Assembly: GCA_016790285.1 (NCBI GenBank)
Contig: JAEUPJ010000041.1
Location: 1 to 64,000, forward strand
DNA length: 64,000 bases
Direction: 5' to 3'
Source of the DNA: Roseateles sp.
Lineage (GTDB): Bacteria > Pseudomonadota > Gammaproteobacteria > Burkholderiales > Burkholderiaceae_C
The notes under the pieces are model-generated. The model was not told the DNA's origin. It was given only the letters and a program-made list of their open reading frames with translations, and did not search any database. Numbering within the stretch: the first letter of the stretch is position 1; the number at the start of each line of letters is the position of its first letter. The position numbers were made by a program, and so were the translations under genes. This document shows positions 3,348 to 24,618 of the stretch, piece by piece.

Positions 3348-4280
3348 TCAGGCCAGCGCGTTGTCGATGAGGTGGCGGATGTCGATGTCGTCCGTGAAGC
3401 CCAGGGCGCGGGCCCGGGGCGTGTGCAGGGGCGGCATGCGGGCGAAGGTGTTCTCGATCCCGGCATCGGGCTGGTGCCGCAGCAGCGTGTGGTGCTGCCC
3501 GGGTGCGGCGGCTTCTGCCACGTCCTGCACCGAAGCCAGGAGCACGGGCAGCTGCACCACGCGGGTCGCGGGCAGGCGCGAGGCCGGCACGGTGGCGGCG
3601 TGCAGCAGGTTGCCCACGCAGCGGGCGCGCGACATCCACCAGCACCGCCCCTGCGCGGAGACGGGGCAGGTGTAGGGCTTCCCGGCACGCAGCGCGCGGA
3701 TGAGGTCGCTCATGAACGCCGAACCGTGGCCCGCGGAGGTGCCCGGCCGCGCCACGATGCCGGGCAGGCGCAGCGACACGCCGTCGACGAGCCCGCGGCG
3801 GCACAGGTCGGCCAGGTGGACCTCGGCCATGAGCTTGTGCGCGCCGTAGCTCGACTGCGGCGCGGGTGCGGCCGTTTCGTCCAGCGTGGCCTGGGCGTCG
3901 AGTGCGCCGTAGACGGCCACGGAGCTGGCAAACACGAGCCGCGCCGGCTGGCTGCGCGCGGCCAGCGCGTCGAGGAGGTTCAGCGTGTCGTGCAGGTTGA
4001 CCTGCTGCCCGAGTGCCGGCTCGCGGCTGGCCAGGCCGCCAGGGACGCTGGCGAGGTGGTAGACGACATCCAGCGGCGCGCTGCGCACGCTGTCGAGCAC
4101 GGCGGGCTGGCCGAAGGGGCCCTCGACGAGCGTGACCCGCGCATCACGCCGCCAGGCCGCCGCCTGGGGGCCGAAGCCCTGGTCGACCAGGCTCACGCGG
4201 GTGGTCGTGTCGAGCGCGAGCAGGCGCTGCACCAGGGCTTCGCCGACATAGCCTGCGGCGCCTGTGATGAGGATGTGCAT
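3348..4280 (-). CDS. NAD-dependent epimerase/dehydratase (extended SDR)
   Basis: A 310-aa protein. The N-terminal TGAAGYVG (residues 6-13) is the Rossmann dinucleotide loop of extended SDRs; catalytic Ser at about 119-120, Tyr145 and Lys149 (S-S-Y-G-A-H-K) complete the active site. The overall pattern resembles DenD-like sugar-acid dehydrogenases, but that resemblance is weak evidence here. It sits 9 nt downstream of the cupin gene inside the catabolic operon, so a role in oxidising a hydroxylated intermediate is possible. Confidence 0.85.
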   Translation of the reverse strand: MHILITGAAGYVGEALVQRLLALDTTTRVSLVDQGFGPQAAAWRRDARVTLVEGPFGQPAVLDSVRSAPLDVVYHLASVPGGLASREPALGQQVNLHDTLNLLDALAARSQPARLVFASSVAVYGALDAQATLDETAAPAPQSSYGAHKLMAEVHLADLCRRGLVDGVSLRLPGIVARPGTSAGHGSAFMSDLIRALRAGKPYTCPVSAQGRCWWMSRARCVGNLLHAATVPASRLPATRVVQLPVLLASVQDVAEAAAPGQHHTLLRHQPDAGIENTFARMPPLHTPRARALGFTDDIDIRHLIDNALA

Positions 4281-4289
4281 GGGGGCCTC

Positions 4290-4871
4290 TCACCGGGCTG
4301 CGACGGCGGCGGCGAGTGCGGCGTCGTAGCGCCCGTCCACCAGCACGAAGAGCATCCGGCAGGGGCGCCCGGAGCGGTTGGCCCAGGCGTGGTTGGTGCC
4401 GCGCTGCACGACGACGCTGCCCGGGCCGAGTTGCACGTCTTCGTTGTCCAGCACGAGGGTCAGCTCGCCGTCGATGACGACCCCGTAGTCCACGGTTTCG
4501 GTCCGGTGCATCAGCGGGTGGGGCGAGTCCTCGCGCACCGTGCTGAGCCTGGCGTCCCCGGCCTGCGTGAAGGCTTGGGCCATGCGCTCGTGGCCGTGCG
4601 CGAGGAACTCCGGCGTGTCGGGGGGGATGTCGACGAACCGGATGCGCGTGCCGTGCGGCGGGGGCGCCAGCTGCAAGGGGCCGATGGTCGGGTCTGCCTC
4701 CTGGGCGCCGATGGGGGCCGGGGTGGCGCCGGTGGCCCACACCTCGTGGAAGACCGTGCCGGGGATGGCCTGGATCTCCACCACGCTGGGCAGGGGGCCG
4801 GCCGAGGCCACGTGGGCACGGCCGAGTTCGTCATGGCCGGTCACGACGCGGTGGATCTGGGGCAATGCCAT
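4290..4871 (-). CDS. Cupin-domain protein
   Basis: A 193-aa protein whose C-terminal half is a cupin barrel: the His-rich strand near HPLMHRTETVDYGVVIDGE and the later G-x-x-x-x-Q-R-G-x-x-H-A-W motif with its metal-ligand His. Small single-domain cupins in catabolic operons are dioxygenases, isomerases or metal-binding accessory proteins. At this length it is not a canonical gentisate dioxygenase, which is bicupin and about 350 aa. It is packed between the flavin monooxygenase and the SDR. Confidence 0.82.
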   Translation of the reverse strand: MALPQIHRVVTGHDELGRAHVASAGPLPSVVEIQAIPGTVFHEVWATGATPAPIGAQEADPTIGPLQLAPPPHGTRIRFVDIPPDTPEFLAHGHERMAQAFTQAGDARLSTVREDSPHPLMHRTETVDYGVVIDGELTLVLDNEDVQLGPGSVVVQRGTNHAWANRSGRPCRMLFVLVDGRYDAALAAAVAAR

Positions 4872-4882
4872 CGCTCGCTCCC

Positions 4883-6013
4883 TCAGATGGGCTGCGCCAG
4901 CGCGATCATCGACTCGCGCATGATGCGGGCGTGCTCGGCCTTGTCGCCGCCGGTGGCCTCGATCTCACCCAGGCGGGCGGAGTTCTGGACCACCATCCGG
5001 CAGCGCTCCCAGCGCCGTTGCTGGAAGGCCTGCAAGGCGCCGTCGACCGTCGTGGCGCGGCCCAGCTCCTCGGCCAGCACGATGCCGTCCTCGATGCCGA
5101 TGCACGCGCCCGAGGCGAGGTGCGGCGTGGTGGCGTGCACCGTGTCGCCGATGAGCACGACGCGGCCGCGGTACCAGGGCTGCGGCACGAGCAGGCCTTC
5201 GAGCGGCCGGTAGATGATCAGCGAGTCGGGGCCGAGGGCGTCGCGCGCGCGCTGCATCAGCGGGGCGGAGAAGGGCTCGAGCAGGGCCTTGAGCGCGGGC
5301 ACGAAGCGCTCGGGCGCCACCCGTTCGTTGACGGGGCGGTCCTCGGTGACGAAGAGGTACATCTCCGTGCGGGACACCGGGTTCACGCCGGTCTTGACCT
5401 TGGGGCCGACCCACATCATGGTGTTCTTGACCTCTTCGGGCCGCGGCAGCACGGCACGCCAGACGCCCTGGCCGCTGTAGCGCGGGGCGGGCGCGTCGGG
5501 GAAGACGGCCTTGCGCACGGCCGAGTAGAGGCCGTCGGCACCGACGACGAGGTCGTAGCGGCCCTGCGTGCCGTCGGTGAAGGCGACGTCCACGCCGTCG
5601 CCCGAGGGTTCGATGTGGGTGAAGCTGCAACCCAGGCGGACGCGGGCGCCGCTGGCGCGCACGGCATCGGCGAGCAGGGCGGCCAGCACCGGGCGCATGA
5701 TGGCGCCGCCGCCGGGAACGTCCGGCCCGGCGACGCGGGGCGTGGGCAGCTCGGCAATCAGTTGCCCATGCGGTGCGAAGACCTGCGCACCATCGTGCGC
5801 ACTGCCCACTTCCAGGAACCTCGGCAGCACGCCCAAGGTGCGCAGCGCACGCAAGGTCGCGCCGCCGATGCTGATGCCGGCGCCGTACGAGCGCCAGCCC
5901 GGGTCGATCTCGACAAGGTCGACCTCCAGGCCTTGGGCGGCGCATTGGATGGCTGCGGCCATGCCGGAAAAGCCGCCGCCGATGATGAGGATCTTGCGCA
6001 CGGGGGATGTCAT
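4883..6013 (-). CDS. FAD-dependent aromatic monooxygenase
   Basis: A 376-aa group A flavoprotein monooxygenase. It has GGGFSGMAAA near the N-terminus for the FAD ADP moiety, the mid-protein VVGADGLYSAVR (DG motif) that contacts FAD and NAD(P)H, and GDTVHATTPHLASG (GD motif) for the FAD ribityl chain. The family hydroxylates phenolic rings, consistent with supplying a diol to the ring-cleavage enzyme encoded upstream. The ATG at 6013 overlaps the stop of the Rieske gene, so the two are translationally coupled. Confidence 0.92.
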   Translation of the reverse strand: MTSPVRKILIIGGGFSGMAAAIQCAAQGLEVDLVEIDPGWRSYGAGISIGGATLRALRTLGVLPRFLEVGSAHDGAQVFAPHGQLIAELPTPRVAGPDVPGGGAIMRPVLAALLADAVRASGARVRLGCSFTHIEPSGDGVDVAFTDGTQGRYDLVVGADGLYSAVRKAVFPDAPAPRYSGQGVWRAVLPRPEEVKNTMMWVGPKVKTGVNPVSRTEMYLFVTEDRPVNERVAPERFVPALKALLEPFSAPLMQRARDALGPDSLIIYRPLEGLLVPQPWYRGRVVLIGDTVHATTPHLASGACIGIEDGIVLAEELGRATTVDGALQAFQQRRWERCRMVVQNSARLGEIEATGGDKAEHARIMRESMIALAQPI

Positions 6014-17803: not shown

Positions 17804-18265
17804 TCATACCTTGGCGAGGAAGGCTGCCGCATCGCCCCCTTCGCACTTCCAGTCAGCGAAGACCCCGACCAGATTGCACTCCACGCAGTGGCAGGCGATG
17901 TAGTACCAGCGCACGTCGTGCGTGCCCTCGTACACGGAGACGCCGGACATCAGCTCGAACACCTCGTTCTCGCACACGCACTCGTGCGTCTCGGGCGCGG
18001 CGTCTTCAACGTAGTCCGCACTGTCGCCCATCAGGTGTTCCTGCCCGCAGTCCGTGCAGGTGCGGATGGCCACCCCGGCCTCTTCATCGGTCTGCAGCGC
18101 GAAGGTGCGGCACCCGCACTCGCATTTGGACGCGGCGAACCGGACGGCCTCATGGCGATTCGCAATGCTGTAGCTGCGCAGCTCGGCTTGGGTGTCGCCA
18201 GACGTCGTCCCGTACCAGAACTCGCCTTTCTTCGTCAGCGCCATGGATGCGGTTCCATTGTTCAA
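17804..18265 (-). CDS. Cysteine-rich zinc-ribbon-like hypothetical protein
   Basis: A 153-aa protein; translation may instead begin at the internal Met8 (MALTKKGEF). It contains paired cysteines: CECGC near residue 50, CTDCG near 70, CVCEN near 95 and CHCVEC near 132. These suggest two small zinc-binding sites. No signal peptide or membrane segment is visible. Its composition is that of a host gene rather than of the A/T-richer island that begins just to the right. No function can be assigned. Confidence 0.6.
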   Translation of the reverse strand: MNNGTASMALTKKGEFWYGTTSGDTQAELRSYSIANRHEAVRFAASKCECGCRTFALQTDEEAGVAIRTCTDCGQEHLMGDSADYVEDAAPETHECVCENEVFELMSGVSVYEGTHDVRWYYIACHCVECNLVGVFADWKCEGGDAAAFLAKV

Positions 18266-18534
18266 GGTGGGCTTGCCGGCAGGGCTGACGGCCTCGCCCG
18301 ATCGCGTGGATTTTGCCTGGAGGCCAAGAGAATCGTTGCGAAGGCTCGGGTTTGCGTGATCGCCTGGAGTCGAGCCGCGGTGGCGGCCGGCTGCTTCGCA
18401 GCGGGAGCGGTCCTACCTGAGGCTGGATTCGACTCCGGAATGCGGACGTTCAACTTGGAACTAATGCGCTGCAATAGGCAGTTATCTAGCCTGCGTGGAC
18501 TGACTACAGGATCTGAGCTTGTAGCAATTGACGT
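18266..18534. other. Non-coding transition into the low-G+C island
   Basis: About 270 bp between the cysteine-rich gene and the end of the nitrilase gene. Composition drops from the surrounding high G+C toward the island. I see no convincing gene, hairpin terminator or tRNA-like sequence. It probably contains the left junction of the acquired segment. Confidence 0.4.
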
Positions 18535-19482
18535 TCAGTCCTGAGTGAACAGTGGGATGGCCACTGGCAATGGGCCTTCCGGGGGCACAGCAGTGTGATC
18601 GGCAATAGCCGTGAAGCCCGGTGGCAAGTGCTTGTACGTGGCCTTTGGCTTGGTGTCGTGACCGTGAATGGCTGCATCGAGATCGCGTACCGGAAGCCTA
18701 ACGCACTGAGCATTGAAAATATTTCCCCCGTCTACAGAGTATCCAACGCGCTTGAACGCATCGTAGTATGGGCTGACGACCAGCGAGCCGCCGTAGAATC
18801 CGGTATTGCAGACCACCACGTTGCAGAAGACCGTTCTTGATAAAGAAACGGCCAATGACTCAAAGAGCTTTACGTCACGGTTGTAGGCTATGACAAACAA
18901 GTGGTGAATCCGGCCGCGATAGAGGAGCGCGCGCTCAATATCCATGAAATCGTAGCAAATACTGACCCCGATCCGCCCATAAGATCCTGCATCGAAGACA
19001 TAGACGTTGGGATCGGCGTGGAACGCCCATGGCGGTATGTAATCTTTGAAGCCGGACGCCTCAGCCGGCGCGGGGTCCCGCTTGCCGAACCAAACTCTTG
19101 TGGCATAGCGTGAAGGTGTGCGCTTCCAAAAATTTCTAGGAACGAGGACGAGACCTTCATTTTTCGCAGATCTCATTCGATGGTCCAAACGGTAGTCAAC
19201 CCCAACGATTGCTAGCGCATTCATGGAACAGACAAGCCGCTCGAAGTCATCCAGTCGCGTCCTTGGGAGTGCTAGCTCAGGGAGAAGAATGATGCGAGGC
19301 TGATCGTCGTGATCTGCCAATGCCCTTATTGCCCTGCGAATCTCATGCCATGCACGACCATCCTCGGCCGCCGAGATTTTTGGCTCACCACTAGAGGCAT
19401 TCCACGCGGCCTTGTGATCCAAGGTCGTCTGAATTACACCAAGGGTTAGTGCTTCAACCAAAGCTGGCCTCTCAGAAATCAT
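18535..19482 (-). CDS. Free-standing nitrilase-superfamily hydrolase of the RT island
   Basis: A 315-aa carbon-nitrogen hydrolase. The catalytic triad is complete: Glu69 (LLPEL), Lys134 (WFGK) and Cys176 (GVSICYDFMD). Known nitrilase-superfamily enzymes hydrolyse nitriles or amides through the Cys. Here the gene is the third of a three-gene cassette and its ATG overlaps the RT stop (ATGA). In DRT type 1 (UG1) defence proteins a nitrilase domain is fused to the reverse transcriptase C-terminus; here it is a separate protein, which is notable. The substrate is unknown, and a defence role is inferred from context. Confidence 0.82.
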   Translation of the reverse strand: MISERPALVEALTLGVIQTTLDHKAAWNASSGEPKISAAEDGRAWHEIRRAIRALADHDDQPRIILLPELALPRTRLDDFERLVCSMNALAIVGVDYRLDHRMRSAKNEGLVLVPRNFWKRTPSRYATRVWFGKRDPAPAEASGFKDYIPPWAFHADPNVYVFDAGSYGRIGVSICYDFMDIERALLYRGRIHHLFVIAYNRDVKLFESLAVSLSRTVFCNVVVCNTGFYGGSLVVSPYYDAFKRVGYSVDGGNIFNAQCVRLPVRDLDAAIHGHDTKPKATYKHLPPGFTAIADHTAVPPEGPLPVAIPLFTQD

Positions 19483-22400
19483 GCCGGCCCCAGTTCAAAG
19501 TAGCGCTTCCAATCAGCGTCGGTGAGGTGCATGAGATTTATAGGGGTAAGTTGCCGAGATTGTTGATTGAAGGTCGATATTTGATTTGCCTCAAGTTCGT
19601 TTTGAGCAATCGAGATGACGCGCGCCAAATCCGCTGCATCGATGAGGCTAACCGGATCATGCTCAGTGTCATCGTCGAAGTCAGGGCTCCATACTTTGTA
19701 TAGTCCGGCGAATACATTCTCGGCCGCGCGAGGTTGGAGACACGCCTCAAGAATTCCAAGAGTTGCCGACGAATAGGTGATCTCGTCTCTCAGCAGCTGC
19801 GGGAGGTGTCTGAGCATGCTTTCATGTCCCAGCCCGTTCCATTGCGCCGGCAGTAGGAACGAGCGTGAAAGCAATGCAAAGAGGCACAGACCAAGACCAC
19901 GAATTGGATTCTGCGCAGAGCCTATTTCGCTCACCACGAGCGGCGCATATCGTCTGTCATAGATTTGGCGTCGCCGAGGGACTTGTCGTAGAGCTCCAAT
20001 TCCGGGCCCTCTCAGCTTCTGTTTCCACTCTTGCCAGGAGACCGCCGCCGCGTCGACGAGATGACTCGGCAGAGCGAAGTTGAGTGGGTGTGCACAATGG
20101 GAGTGCGTATCAGCGTCTTTGCGCGACGAGCGTTGGAGATAGTCTCGGTCCAACGTCTCGGCAGTAGACGACAGAAGCAACGCTGCTTGCCTGACGATCT
20201 CTAGGCAGGTCCATTCGCCGAGTCGCCATTCCTTTGTGACTCCGGGATCGCGGCTGTCCCAGATCTTTGCTGCCCAGACCGGCAGCGCTAGTAGTTTCCC
20301 CGCCTCCGTTCCTTCAAGCGATGTCCGAACGCGAGACGCTGCTGGCGAAAGAGCCGCTACTTGCTGGATGTCGGGGCGATCGAGGCGCCCCATCAAGGCA
20401 TCAAACCACCAGCCTTCTTGATTCGCTTGAGTTGGCCTATTTGCTGACGCGATTCTCACTAGTGGTGCGATTGGTGCATCCGCGGGAAAGAACGTCCATA
20501 AATCATCGGATTCGGGCAGGCCATCGACGAGGGCTCCCAAGTGAATGATCAGATCAGACGCTCGACGAACGGGCTTGCGGAGGTCGAACTTGCACCCCCA
20601 CCAGGCAAGCGCAACGCGCAGATCCGGGGGCACGTCACCGCTACTTAGCAGCGTGCGGCCTCGATCCACAAATGGTTGACTCAGCCGTTGACCCAAGAGT
20701 TGCAAGGAACCTGGCGACTGTTCCAACAATACAGTGGCGCAATACACACCGACGAAAAACTGATTCAGGCTTTTCTGTACAAACCAGCGGTCTGCTTCAG
20801 GCAGGCCTCGATTCGTAAGCCTCGCAATATCTCGCAGAAATCTCAGCGCGGCCGCTCTGCGCCATCCAGCAGCATTGGTGTCAACAAGCAACTGTGCAGC
20901 TCGCACTGTTTCTGCAGCGAGCACCGCGTAAGAGTTGCCGAGTATGTAATTGGCTGCCAGCCGATTTACTGGGTCCCGAGCATAGCGATCGATGTCATCA
21001 AAGAGAAGTTCCAGTCCCTTCGCGCCGAGGCGGCGCGCGATGGTTAGCGCATGGGTCCACAGACGGACGCGATCAGGCCGTTCGTACAGAACTTTTCTGA
21101 CCAAGCCAAATACTCTGTCGGCAATGCTGGCAAGCCGGGCGTGAATCTGAGAGTCATTGATGCCAGTAAGACCAGCAATTGGGTCGAGCGAAGGGCCCCC
21201 ACCATTGCCGCTTATTGCTTGATTCCCGGTCGTTCGGCTTTGCCCGCGCCCGCCATCTCGAATCTCGAGTGTTTCCGGTGCGGCGAGTCTTGCTTCGGCG
21301 ACGCGAGCAAGACGCGTTGCCGCGAATGCCAGACGTGTTCGCGCGGGCATCTCCGCCTCAGGAACATCCACGAGCAATAGATGCTCCAACTGCTGCGAGA
21401 GGATTGAGAGTTCGTTGCCTTCGAGCGCCGTGAAATCAGTTCTGCCGATTGCCGAAACCAGAGCAATCGTCTTCGTCATCAATGGAGTTGGAAACTCAGG
21501 GTCGAGGCGGCACTCTTCTTGGGCTCGATTCCACGGGTCTGACCCGGCGGCGCGCTTGCTGGTGTCACTCGTTCCCAGTAGTTCCCCTAGGGCTTTCGGC
21601 TCGGTCTTTGCGGGGTTAATGCTTGCGCCGGAGCCGAGCCTATGGATCACGTCCTTGTAGTAATCGAGCCACTTCACCAGCTCCTCAAACGTCTTGGCCA
21701 AGATCACATGGTCGTCGACATAGCGGAAGTGCGCGACACGTCCGCGAGGGAGCGTTCGCGCTACTTCTTGGTCGACCGGTAGGAGTGCCGCATTTGCGAG
21801 AAACCCTGAGACCATGAGCCCAGTAGGAATTCTGCGAAATGTTTTCCGAGACGCATCAAGTTCAATGTGCTTCAGTTCTGCATCCGTCCAACCCTCAAGA
21901 TCCAATGGAAGCTGTGTCAACGTCTTTAGCAGTCGTTGAACTTCTGGGCGCAGGTCGGGCGGAACAGACTGGGAGATTGCGTCAACGCATGCTGTCAGGG
22001 GAATGGACGGATAGAACTTCTCAAGATCGACAGATGCCCAATAGATGCCATCCTTGTTGGAGTCAGTTGGCAATCTAGTCCAATAGTCAGCAAGGACAAA
22101 TGGACATCGATCGGCGCGCTGCATGCGGTGCTGAAGTTCAAGTTCTTCACGCTCATCGTCATCAAGGTTGTCCGCCTTGGAATGACCGTGCGCCGCTGCT
22201 GAAACCCCCAGGGCGATATGACGCCTAAATAGCGGCCAGGCCTGCTGAAACGGCCGATAGATTCGGCCAGAGGAGTGCCTGTATGGCCCGATCTTCCGTA
22301 TCTTTTTGCCGTGGTGACCTTCTTCAATCCATGCCGACCGGAAGAGTCTGTTGCCATAGCTCCAAACGGGCATCTGTGCGTCGACGTAGGGCCCTAGGAC

Positions 22401-22703
22401 GTTGACGACTGCAGTCCAGGCTATTTGATCTCTGACGGTGAAGTGAAAATACTGTCGAACCCTAGGATTCCCATCCCCATCAGGATTTTTTGGAAAAGCC
22501 ATAGGCCGAATTGGTGACATCCGGAATCTTCCGGAGCGTAGATCGTCACCTAGACGCTGGAGTTCGCGGCCCAAGTGAACTTCGAAATCGGCAAGATCTG
22601 CCTCATCGATCCAGATATCGCCGGGTATAGACGCTCGCTTCACCTTCTCCCATGCCCAGCGCATGTTCAACTGGTCACATACCTGACTTAGAAAGCTACG
22701 CAT
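19479..22703 (-). CDS. UG/DRT-type reverse transcriptase, 1074 aa
   Basis: The palm motifs are clear: Asp226 in SVDLEKFYPSI (motif A), RIPTGLMVSGFLAN at 291-304 (motif B), Y-V-D-D at 328-331 with HFR before it (motif C), and INPAKTEP at 362-369 (motif D region). Upstream, MPVWSYGNRLF at 111-121 resembles the unknown-group (UG) RTs used in phage defence. About 650 residues of helical, repeat-like sequence follow, comparable to the alpha-helical C-terminal parts of Abi/DRT RTs. There is no maturase or endonuclease domain, and no retron RNA or DGR template is visible. The ATG at 22703 lies inside the end of the primase gene (8-nt overlap). Lower G+C than the flanks suggests transfer. Confidence 0.9.
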   Translation of the reverse strand: MRSFLSQVCDQLNMRWAWEKVKRASIPGDIWIDEADLADFEVHLGRELQRLGDDLRSGRFRMSPIRPMAFPKNPDGDGNPRVRQYFHFTVRDQIAWTAVVNVLGPYVDAQMPVWSYGNRLFRSAWIEEGHHGKKIRKIGPYRHSSGRIYRPFQQAWPLFRRHIALGVSAAAHGHSKADNLDDDEREELELQHRMQRADRCPFVLADYWTRLPTDSNKDGIYWASVDLEKFYPSIPLTACVDAISQSVPPDLRPEVQRLLKTLTQLPLDLEGWTDAELKHIELDASRKTFRRIPTGLMVSGFLANAALLPVDQEVARTLPRGRVAHFRYVDDHVILAKTFEELVKWLDYYKDVIHRLGSGASINPAKTEPKALGELLGTSDTSKRAAGSDPWNRAQEECRLDPEFPTPLMTKTIALVSAIGRTDFTALEGNELSILSQQLEHLLLVDVPEAEMPARTRLAFAATRLARVAEARLAAPETLEIRDGGRGQSRTTGNQAISGNGGGPSLDPIAGLTGINDSQIHARLASIADRVFGLVRKVLYERPDRVRLWTHALTIARRLGAKGLELLFDDIDRYARDPVNRLAANYILGNSYAVLAAETVRAAQLLVDTNAAGWRRAAALRFLRDIARLTNRGLPEADRWFVQKSLNQFFVGVYCATVLLEQSPGSLQLLGQRLSQPFVDRGRTLLSSGDVPPDLRVALAWWGCKFDLRKPVRRASDLIIHLGALVDGLPESDDLWTFFPADAPIAPLVRIASANRPTQANQEGWWFDALMGRLDRPDIQQVAALSPAASRVRTSLEGTEAGKLLALPVWAAKIWDSRDPGVTKEWRLGEWTCLEIVRQAALLLSSTAETLDRDYLQRSSRKDADTHSHCAHPLNFALPSHLVDAAAVSWQEWKQKLRGPGIGALRQVPRRRQIYDRRYAPLVVSEIGSAQNPIRGLGLCLFALLSRSFLLPAQWNGLGHESMLRHLPQLLRDEITYSSATLGILEACLQPRAAENVFAGLYKVWSPDFDDDTEHDPVSLIDAADLARVISIAQNELEANQISTFNQQSRQLTPINLMHLTDADWKRYFELGPA

Positions 22704-23856
22704 TCATTCCTCGCGCAATCACGTCGCTGGCGTCCATGCCTTCAGGTGGAACTACAAACCGAATGCTCTTGCTTCTGGCCCGGAACTCATTTGCAAGGCA
22801 CTTCCTGAATTTCTCGCCCGCAGCATCGCCATCGGGAACACCCACTAGATCAAACGGGAGCAGTTCCTCAACCCATTCGGAACGAAACGATGTGGCACCT
22901 AAAATTGCAACTGCGGCGAGCCCAGATCCTTCCATGGCAATTGCGTCTGGCACGCCTTCGCAAATGTGAAGAAGACTTCCTGGCCGCAACTGGCTAAGCC
23001 GTTGATTGTTGAACATTGGCTTGGGGATACCAGCTGGACCGAAGAATTTCCTACTGCTCTGGAGGCATCGAACCTGTAAGTACTGCGTGGTCGCATCGAA
23101 TTTGAAGGGGAAAATTAGGGCGTAGCCAGACCAGCTTAGTGCCCGTCGGCTCCCAGATAGCCCTGCGCTACGGATTCGCTCTGCACCCCAATGCCTTTCT
23201 AGTTCTCGATACGCCCTCGCCGGGTCTACGAGTTCCACGACGCCGAACCGATGCGCCAGTTCCGGTGCAATTCCGTGAGCTTCGAGGTAGGTTGTCCCCA
23301 AGGACGCTTGGACCGGTCCGCAATGCGCTACCAGCCAGCTGTACAACTCGGGGTCGGGGCTGGCCGAGGATGCAGGAGGATGAGGACTGGCTGGCCTGGA
23401 GCTAGTAGCCCGCGAAACTGAATGAGTCCGTCGGCCGAGTGGGACGTTGCCGCCGATGATGCCGAAGTGGCCGCAGAGCCAGTTGCAGGCCTCCAAAAAC
23501 CCAAGACCGTGAATCTTCTGGACTAACGCGATTGCGTCGCCATACTCACCACATCCAAAGCACCTCCAGGTATTTCTTGCTTTGCTAACGGTGAAGCTTG
23601 GGCTCGCTGTATCGTGCCCGTTGAAGCACATCGCCTTGTTGCCGCGCAGGGTAATCCCTACTGCCGATGCAACGTCCGCCATTGGCAATTCGCGCAGGCG
23701 TGCAAGCGCCTGATCGCTCAATGGCTTCGGCCTAGCTGGCTGCAAGCTGGCTCGCCGCAAATCCGTCCCCCTTGTGCCGGGTTCTGTCTTGTTAGCAAAA
23801 TTGTCCCATGGAAACGACGGGGTGGGGTTGCGAATCTGCTGAGATTTGACCGGCAC
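22696..23856 (-). CDS. CHC2 zinc-finger / TOPRIM primase-like protein
   Basis: A 386-aa protein beginning at a GTG; the start is uncertain in the first 45 residues, which look disordered. The zinc finger is Cys77-x3-His81-x17-Cys99-x2-Cys102 (CHC2 type). A TOPRIM core follows: Glu300 in ICEGVPDAIA and Asp342-x-Asp344 in GVPDGDAAG, ending in a DnaG-like MDASDVIARG. It lacks a helicase-binding domain. The fold is that of DnaG and plasmid/phage primases, which make RNA primers. First in the cassette and overlapping the RT gene, it may prime or process nucleic acid for the RT (inference). Confidence 0.85.
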   Translation of the reverse strand: MPVKSQQIRNPTPSFPWDNFANKTEPGTRGTDLRRASLQPARPKPLSDQALARLRELPMADVASAVGITLRGNKAMCFNGHDTASPSFTVSKARNTWRCFGCGEYGDAIALVQKIHGLGFLEACNWLCGHFGIIGGNVPLGRRTHSVSRATSSRPASPHPPASSASPDPELYSWLVAHCGPVQASLGTTYLEAHGIAPELAHRFGVVELVDPARAYRELERHWGAERIRSAGLSGSRRALSWSGYALIFPFKFDATTQYLQVRCLQSSRKFFGPAGIPKPMFNNQRLSQLRPGSLLHICEGVPDAIAMEGSGLAAVAILGATSFRSEWVEELLPFDLVGVPDGDAAGEKFRKCLANEFRARSKSIRFVVPPEGMDASDVIARGMNA

Positions 23857-24012
23857 TGCGCGCGTAGATGCAAGCGGCTGCAGCCAGTTCGAGCAAGGTG
23901 GCTGCGGTAAGCATTACGTGGTCGTTTAGATGGCGCAACTGAACTGCCGTGAAGCGGTCGTTGGTGGACTTCGGCTACCAGCCTTTTCCAGCCGCCGCGT
24001 ACCCACTCCCCA
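23857..24012. promoter_or_regulatory. Region upstream of the primase-RT-nitrilase cassette
   Basis: 156 bp between the last secretion-linked gene and the cassette, all on the minus strand. Any promoter for the cassette must lie here or farther upstream. I see no strong sigma-70 boxes and no obvious structured RNA. Composition changes from host-like to lower G+C within this stretch, so it probably contains the right junction of the island. Confidence 0.4.
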
Positions 24013-24618
24013 TCACCCGCCCGCCCCCCGCACCCTCCCCACAAACTCCGCACACACCCGGCTCGCATCCGCCTGCCGGCGCCAGGCCTGGGCCAGGTCG
24101 CGCAGGGCGGCTCGCACTTCGCGGGGGAGGGTGCCGTCCAGGGGGTCGTCGGCGACGGCGGTGAGGTGGTCGGCGTAGAGGGCGCGGGCGTCGGGGGCGC
24201 AGTCCAGCAGGTCCATCACGGCGCTGGCCAGAGTCTGGAAGTGCTCGGCGGGCAGTTCGGCCGGGCCCTGGCGGGGCCAGGCGGCCAGGCACAGGTATTC
24301 GATGGGGCCGAGGCTGCGGCGCAGGCCGCCGGGGGGGCGGTGGGCGCCCCAGGCGGCTCGGGCGCCGTTGGGCAGGCGGCCCTGGCTCAGGGCCTGCACC
24401 AGGGTCTGGGCCACGGCGGCGCGGGCGGCGTATTCGCCGCGGGCGTTGATCTCGGCGAGCACGCGCAGGAAGGCGGGGTAGAGCTGGTCGCCCAGGCCGG
24501 TGCAAACGGCTTCCATCAGCGCAATGGCGCCGTCCTGCCGGGGCCCCAGGTCCACGCAGCCGCTGATGAGCGCCTGGGCGGCGTCAGCCCAGCGCGGCTG
24601 GGCGAGCAGCTCAGCCAA
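24013..24618 (-). CDS. Hypothetical protein, last gene of the T3SS operon
   Basis: A 201-aa, mostly helical, Leu/Ala-rich soluble-looking protein with a conserved-looking core SLGPIEYLCLAAWPRQG. No signal peptide or membrane segment is visible. It overlaps the preceding 73-aa gene by 8 nt, implying coupling. The position after sctT suggests a chaperone, gatekeeper or accessory role in secretion, but I do not recognise the family. Its 3' end resembles bases 245-292 of the window. Confidence 0.6.
   Translation of the reverse strand: MAELLAQPRWADAAQALISGCVDLGPRQDGAIALMEAVCTGLGDQLYPAFLRVLAEINARGEYAARAAVAQTLVQALSQGRLPNGARAAWGAHRPPGGLRRSLGPIEYLCLAAWPRQGPAELPAEHFQTLASAVMDLLDCAPDARALYADHLTAVADDPLDGTLPREVRAALRDLAQAWRRQADASRVCAEFVGRVRGAGG

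Follow-up and report, generated by a model that had tools for sequence, protein, structure and literature searches.

A stretch of 64,000 nucleotides from Roseateles sp. (contig JAEUPJ010000041.1; hereafter the window, in whose numbering all positions are given) carries on its minus strand three overlapping genes, which encode a DnaG-like primase, a reverse transcriptase (RT) and a nitrilase-family protein. These genes almost certainly form a defence-associated reverse transcriptase (DRT) operon of the UG6 type; to judge from its sequence, the operon is real, conserved and functional-looking. The genes are listed below, with primase residues numbered on the 354-residue protein.

22696..23760, minus strand: DnaG-like primase with a CHC2 zinc finger and a TOPRIM core, 354 amino acids from the probable TTG start at 23760
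22696-23856, minus strand: the primase as first drawn, 386 amino acids from a GTG start at 23856
19479..22703, minus strand: UG6-class RT with a long C-terminal region, 1074 amino acids; Asp226 and YVDD at 328-331
18535..19482, minus strand: free nitrilase-family protein of the DRT1/UG5 type, 315 amino acids; Glu69, Lys134 and Cys176

The primase and RT genes share 8 nucleotides (22696-22703) and the RT and nitrilase genes share 4 (19479-19482), as had been stated in an earlier annotation made from the DNA letters alone (the sequence-only reading).

Class and integrity of the three proteins

The RT gave a Pfam RVT_1 match (1.4e-9) and scored 1278 bits against the RT_UG6 model of PADLOC-DB 2.0.0, residues 110-1072 lying on positions 2-923 of the 925 in the model, while the next model reached 75.6 bits. 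The assignment to UG6 is thus made by profile match, the trees described below being built for close relatives only. The RT also matched TIGR04416 (group_II_RT_mat) at 1.1e-14, with the best stretch at residues 13-124; similarity to group II RT/maturases is reported for 93% of UG6 RTs (PMC8934634), and the window RT shares this trait of its class. Asp226 and the YVDD motif were unchanged in all seven aligned RTs. Two claims of the sequence-only reading, that the RT belongs to a defence class and that its catalytic palm residues are intact, are therefore upheld. A structure model of the RT, which might have borne on the long helical C-terminus put forward in the sequence-only reading, was too poor to be used (mean predicted local distance difference test score, pLDDT, 33.3); its best-scored part, at about residues 520-690, is helical.

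The two partners also match models of PADLOC-DB: the primase scored 398 bits against RTasDnaG-like, covering only model positions 4-375 of 550, and the nitrilase 384 bits (2.1e-115) against RTasNitrilase, covering only positions 122-396 of 397. These partner models denote DRT components, and the matches do not by themselves tie them to UG6. The suggestion of a new DRT type was rejected in the form given: the RT falls inside the known class UG6, and all three protein families were already in PADLOC-DB (2023) as DRT components. In addition, an RT placed in UG6 by pplacer (BBI33370.1) has a nitrilase neighbour in a table of PMC8934634 (2021), and the same paper names dnaG among the occasional neighbours of RT genes generally. 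The classification of Mestre et al. 2022 is relayed by PMC13275509, PMC12489045, PMC13174585 and PMC13213688. A literature search, which left most subscription papers outside, found UG6 named in classification work and no study of its mechanism. Part of the gene set had thus been described before, and so had all three families.

The identity of the first protein as a DnaG-like CHC2-TOPRIM primase stood. Pfam recognised Zn_ribbon_DnaG (1.2e-12) and Toprim_2 (1.3e-5), and the CHC2 ligands Cys45, His49, Cys67 and Cys70, as well as the TOPRIM residues Glu268, Asp310 and Asp312, were invariant in eight of eight primases. When the protein was aligned with the two DnaG proteins encoded elsewhere in its own genome, Lys238, Glu268, Asp310, Asp312 and Asp343 were kept. 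It scored 48 bits for the zinc ribbon and 69.2 bits against TIGR01391, under the 283.6-bit cut-off of the latter for housekeeping DnaG, whereas the two DnaG genes scored 445.5 and 431.5 bits; with 354 amino acids, against 637 and 609, it stops before the DnaG C-terminal region. Two above-cut-off DnaG genes (L048 and L049, on contigs 41 and 26) thus occur in one assembly, for which contamination is given as 3.85%.

The start at 23856 that was first drawn for the primase did not stand. Because only the last 354-356 codons are a common reading frame among the eight homologues, we placed the start at 23760, and the TTG codon there is probably the real one. The first 32 or so codons of the drawn gene are not conserved as coding sequence, and in four homologues (L002, L003, L004 and L008) the open frame begins fewer than 20 codons ahead of the conserved start. 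In one genome of the same family (G814) the primase match contains one TGA; the open frame ahead of the RT gene is 369 amino acids long, and the match was therefore taken to extend past the start.

An intact, free nitrilase with a Glu69-Lys134-Cys176 triad had also been predicted, and this was confirmed: the protein is encoded by its own gene and the triad was found in eight of eight nitrilases. A broader alignment, which took in UG5, DRT1-type and ordinary nitrilases, showed Glu69 and Cys176 to be invariant (9/9) and Lys134 not. The Pfam CN_hydrolase match was below cut-off (E 0.21). In a phmmer search a single solved chain was matched, that of DRT1 (9yfd; 8.3e-10), Cys176 falling on Cys1116. 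Nineteen plasmid records matched the nitrilase, nine of them under a product annotated as reverse transcriptase. Four of the remaining records were scanned and held two RT_UG5-nitrilase fusions (L017 and L018), one C-terminal piece of DRT1 and one nitrilase without an RT model. The last (L019 6518-8395, Bradyrhizobium plasmid p1S06B) is a 625-residue protein with matches to RT-associated nitrilases in two stretches, and PADLOC effector endonucleases are matched by another gene (4176-5333), which lies further upstream. The DRT1 piece (L024 6020-7354, Sphingopyxis plasmid) is a 444-residue gene that covers positions 759-1176 of the DRT1 model only. Its neighbour is an IS1380-family transposase, and the gene is apparently a truncated DRT1.

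Conservation and transfer of the unit

Relatives of the operon were sought by scanning genome contigs with short peptide patterns of the RT alone, a search that reaches close relatives only and not UG6 outside Pseudomonadota. It returned eight loci in seven genomes. In all seven of these other genomes the three genes stand in the same order, six of the loci being whole (L002, L003, L004 from Hydrogenophaga, L005, L007 and L008); in Variovorax paradoxus 110B the locus lies at two contig ends, L009 (primase and RT start) and L006 (RT end and nitrilase), assumed to be one locus. The 8-nucleotide overlap between primase and RT was exact in eight of eight sequences tested. The window proteins are 82-88% (RT), 76-87% (primase) and 82-88% (nitrilase) identical to their homologues, and the pairwise ratios of nonsynonymous to synonymous divergence (dN/dS) against the window were 0.10-0.16 for the RT (6 pairs), 0.13-0.20 for the primase (6) and 0.10-0.22 for the nitrilase (7), which indicates that all three genes are under purifying selection. 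As no close relative of the RT was found without either partner, the primase and nitrilase are, as proposed, conserved neighbours of the RT within one unit, and the arrangement, to judge from these seven genomes, is not due to chance.

At E 1e-30 the RT_UG6 profile matched 4 of 399 genomes of the family (own genome included) and the own genome only among 300 of the order, 398 of the phylum and 369 of the class, samples that overlap. The three other family hits (G814, G867 and G973) were taken as L002, L004 and L003 and were not counted twice. The RTasDnaG-like profile, because it also recognises housekeeping DnaG, matched in 381 of 398 family genomes; matches above 370 bits occurred in four only, the four with a UG6 RT. 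No plasmid matched the RT at 1e-5, and no relative of the queried proteins emerged from four viral-contig scans or from a search of phages, the latter made with the RT only. On two Candidatus Manganitrophus plasmids (L020 8040-10911 and L021 7998-10869) a toprim gene overlaps a helicase gene; the L020 pair scores 197 bits against RTasDnaG-like and 313/308 bits against RTasHel/GajB, no RT is annotated in the 17 kb viewed, and the pair is possibly an RT-free defence system.

Three non-coding blocks flank the genes.

~23761-23914, minus strand: conserved non-coding leader, BLAST match in 6 of 7 homologues
~23915-23993, minus strand: non-coding outer left-end block, match in 4 of 7 homologues (L002, L004, L005 and L008)
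18379..18534, minus strand: non-coding block downstream of the nitrilase gene, assumed to be the right end of the transferred unit; outer part matched by BLAST in 3 of 7 homologues (L002, L004 and L005)

Beyond these blocks the shared flanks stop; in others the right block was matched nearer the nitrilase gene. The unit has a G+C content of 56.0% against 70.6% for the window, and in six relatives the genes have 51-56% and the flanks 60-74%. By synonymous divergence (dS) the nearest copies are those of Burkholderia sp. D-99 (L005; 0.30-0.40) and Candidimonas nitroreducens (L008; 0.36-0.45), whose hosts are named in the families Burkholderiaceae and Alcaligenaceae; the copies of the window's own family (L002, L003 and L004) lie at 0.66-0.94 and those of Variovorax (L006 and L007) at 0.65-0.92. 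In the trees these two copies were again the nearest for each of the three genes, and no supported clade held the window row. In the stretches fetched from five congeners, homology on the flagellar side starts at 24013-24065, and the sequence left of that point, cassette included, has no match there; pieces of the window's left flank occur elsewhere in 4 of 19 other congeners. Taken together, composition, divergence and flanks indicate that the operon has been transferred horizontally, as a unit of some 5.6 kb (18379-23993).

In six homologues the leader shares 68-80% of its positions with the window copy over 116-216 nucleotides (partly coding), above the 48-71% at synonymous sites of the primase; as BLAST selects the best-matching part, constraint on the leader is no more than hinted at. 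A conserved structured non-coding RNA beside the RT, the mark of retrons and class 2 DRTs, was considered and not supported, as Rfam at gathering scores had no match in the window and a leader alignment of seven of the eight sequences (L003 left out) gave -11.2 kcal/mol with an unfavourable covariation term and two-sided changes in 4 of 28 pairs; an RNA of a new kind may nevertheless be present. Terminal inverted repeats were likewise considered: a GGCTGAA-like run is shared in inverted form by eye, the comparison of flanks gave one hit only (L004), and no claim is made. No sigma-70-like promoter site was found, and terminator-like sites were at chance level.

Of ten neighbouring open reading frames (ORFs) at five loci, two have no Pfam hit; among the others are gyrB, a CDP-alcohol phosphatidyltransferase, a NERD protein, a Fic protein, a UvrA-like frame, a response regulator, a helicase and an integrase-core transposase. 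The UvrA-like frame (1964 amino acids) lies about 1.3 kb upstream of the cassette of Burkholderia sp. D-99 (L005 1784-7678, minus strand) and scores 509 bits against PADLOC mad3 and 218 against mad8. Downstream of the window cassette lies a cysteine-rich frame of 153 amino acids (17804-18265, minus strand), which Pfam matches only weakly and PADLOC not at all; the fetched loci of the relatives contain nothing that matches it.

Proposed function and rival explanations

The best explanation of the operon as a whole, to which we give a probability of about 0.6, is an abortive-infection DRT that works like DRT1 but is split into subunits, with a primase added whose role may be one of several. An anti-phage function is very probable. 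In DRT1 the active sites of both RT and nitrilase are required and infection is abortive; DNA synthesis by DRT1 and DRT5, both of class 3, is protein-primed and template-free, and DNA stabilises dormant DRT1 filaments (PMC13275509). By analogy, the UG6 RT would make protein-linked DNA without an external RNA template, as do purified DRT1 and DRT5, and this DNA would keep the separate nitrilase in a regulated assembly. An event of phage replication would free the nitrilase, which would then destroy or alter an essential small molecule. Because of the DRT1 mechanism, and because many plasmid relatives of the nitrilase are fused to RTs, the free nitrilase is probably the effector, regulated by the product of the RT.

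For the primase DRT1 offers no precedent; the text of the DRT1 paper PMC13275509 never mentions one. DnaG enzymes lay primers on single-stranded DNA, and the DnaG-like protein would accordingly be expected to act on such DNA. The simplest use of this activity is second-strand synthesis on the RT product, and the most likely job of the primase would thus be to lay RNA primers there, or otherwise to sense phage forks. That it acts on the RT's own DNA is a tentative proposal, which we hold at somewhat less than even odds.

Several observations weigh against a DRT1-like defence system. The RT is remote from that of DRT1: a profile of the seven RTs matched 9yfd at E 0.032 (215-347), group II intron RTs scored slightly better with the same profile, and the mechanism is therefore carried over by analogy. 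The priming serine of DRT1 is reported not to be conserved in other class 3 DRTs (PMC13275509). The sites of insertion differ and are mostly not recognisable defence islands: only four of the ten neighbouring ORFs had a PADLOC match at 1e-5 (Fic, SoFic, 133 bits; UvrA-like, mad3; helicase, 39 bits; response regulator, 24 bits). These different sites, mostly outside recognisable islands, together with the partly conserved ends, would also suit a selfish or housekeeping retroelement. We consider such an element improbable, as none of the three genes encodes a recombinase, the RT class and both partners are listed as DRT families, and a full-length match to either end block occurs once in the genome, further hits being 16-22 bases long.

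The role of the primase admits other readings. The sequence-only reading had the primase supply primers for the RT, that is, short RNA primers which the RT would extend on templates from the phage or the cell. In its favour, the primase gene lies ahead of the RT gene and overlaps it, neither was found without the other in what was searched, and the TOPRIM metal residues and zinc ligands are invariant; however, DnaG enzymes prime on single-stranded DNA, and the DRTs that have been assayed, DRT1 and DRT5, are protein-primed without a template (PMC13275509), so that we regard this role as unlikely. The main rival to second-strand priming is that the DnaG-like protein makes no primers and is a sensor of phage forks or of single-stranded DNA that triggers assembly of RT and nitrilase. 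This would fit both its ending before the DnaG C-terminal region and the finding that DRT1 acts against T4 only when the phage single-strand DNA helicase Dda is present, although Dda does not suffice by itself (PMC13275509); the invariance of the TOPRIM metal residues suggests catalysis instead, and a pure sensor seems no more probable than priming of the RT. Less probable still is a TOPRIM protein that serves as a second effector, for example a nuclease, with the nitrilase as regulator. Retron Eco2, an RT-TOPRIM fusion whose effector activity is needed, provides a precedent, whereas DRT1 requires its nitrilase active site (PMC13275509). The window protein, moreover, fits a primase core in both its TIGR01391 and zinc-ribbon scores. 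Second-strand priming within a split, DRT1-like system thus remains our preferred reading of the primase.

Whatever the role of the primase, all three genes are present and under selection in a mobile unit of small size, and a giant sister protein may repeat their order; the operon is hence a test bed both for primases in RT-based immunity and for the targets of DRT nitrilases.

Comparison with known systems

Class 3 of the UG/Abi RTs comprises RTs with a nitrilase or phosphohydrolase domain (PMC13275509, PMC12489045); in the window the nitrilase is associated with a UG6 RT and not fused to it. DRT1 shares with the operon an RT and a nitrilase whose catalytic Cys residues align, but holds them in one chain, whereas here they come from separate genes. 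The same contrast applies to the UG5-nitrilase RTs of the two plasmids above, in which the nitrilase part, fused to the RT, is 23-25% identical to the window nitrilase; no primase is annotated near them in the stretches viewed, for which the plasmid gene tables are incomplete.

A closer parallel in gene order may be offered by the giant proteins of UG29, a sister class of UG6. The fifth match of the primase search in the family genomes (172 bits against RTasDnaG-like) is a frame of 2,576 amino acids in the same family (L074) that scores 2646 bits against RT_UG29. Its residues 38-449 are DnaG-like, Pfam recognising a zinc ribbon and a TOPRIM domain in them, the RT palm lies at about 836-912, and the C-terminal region resembles nitrilases at its start (hhalign E 3.3e-6 over 83 columns). 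Polaromonas plasmid pPNAP05 encodes another UG29 protein (L075; 2,510 amino acids), with a tyrosine recombinase and an IS1182 transposase close by. LLVLPE, a KKYR motif and LICSE are conserved between the two and, judged by eye, follow one another as do Glu, Lys and Cys in nitrilases. Primase, RT and possible nitrilase would thus follow the gene order of the operon, with the difference that they form one polypeptide, that the RT can be aligned with UG6 only around the palm (67 columns) and that the nitrilase match is weak.

The order of primase and RT in the UG29 sequences is secure without the nitrilase part, which is weakly supported. The L074 protein reached 33.7 bits against RT_UG5-nitrilase, with a best stretch (2093-2159) that fails on its own. 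Several results count against a nitrilase in the UG29 tail: automatic alignment puts no UG29 Lys or Cys on Lys134 or Cys176, a two-row UG29 profile weakens the match (E 1.3e-4 at 53% probability and 5.1e-4 at 31%), the tail did not match the UG6 nitrilases alone (E 0.09 and 0.12) or any solved chain at E 10, and BLASTP against two UG5 nitrilases gave E 0.63 and 0.041. The domain order of UG29 may, on this weak support, match the UG6 gene order including the nitrilase; if it does, the shared order would be the strongest hint that the three activities work as one machine. UG6 operons and UG29 giants would then be two builds of that machine, in which a DnaG-type primase primes the second strand on the protein-linked DNA of the RT, and the single- or double-stranded state of this DNA holds or releases the nitrilase killer. 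We offer this as speculation that is rather unlikely as it stands; the UG29 link and the primase role are nevertheless the parts most worth laboratory effort.

A combination of RT with primase activity is also found in DRT7/UG10, where a primase-polymerase of the AE_Prim_S type is fused to the RT (PMC8934634, PMC13213688). In contrast, the operon encodes a bacterial DnaG-type TOPRIM protein from a gene of its own, and no AE_Prim_S-type domain was found in Pfam searches up to E 1, which showed only RVT_1 in the RT and Zn_ribbon_DnaG and Toprim in the primase. If UG6 operons and UG29 giants are indeed two builds of one machine, they would represent the bacterial-primase counterpart of DRT7, the system that joins an RT to a primase-polymerase.

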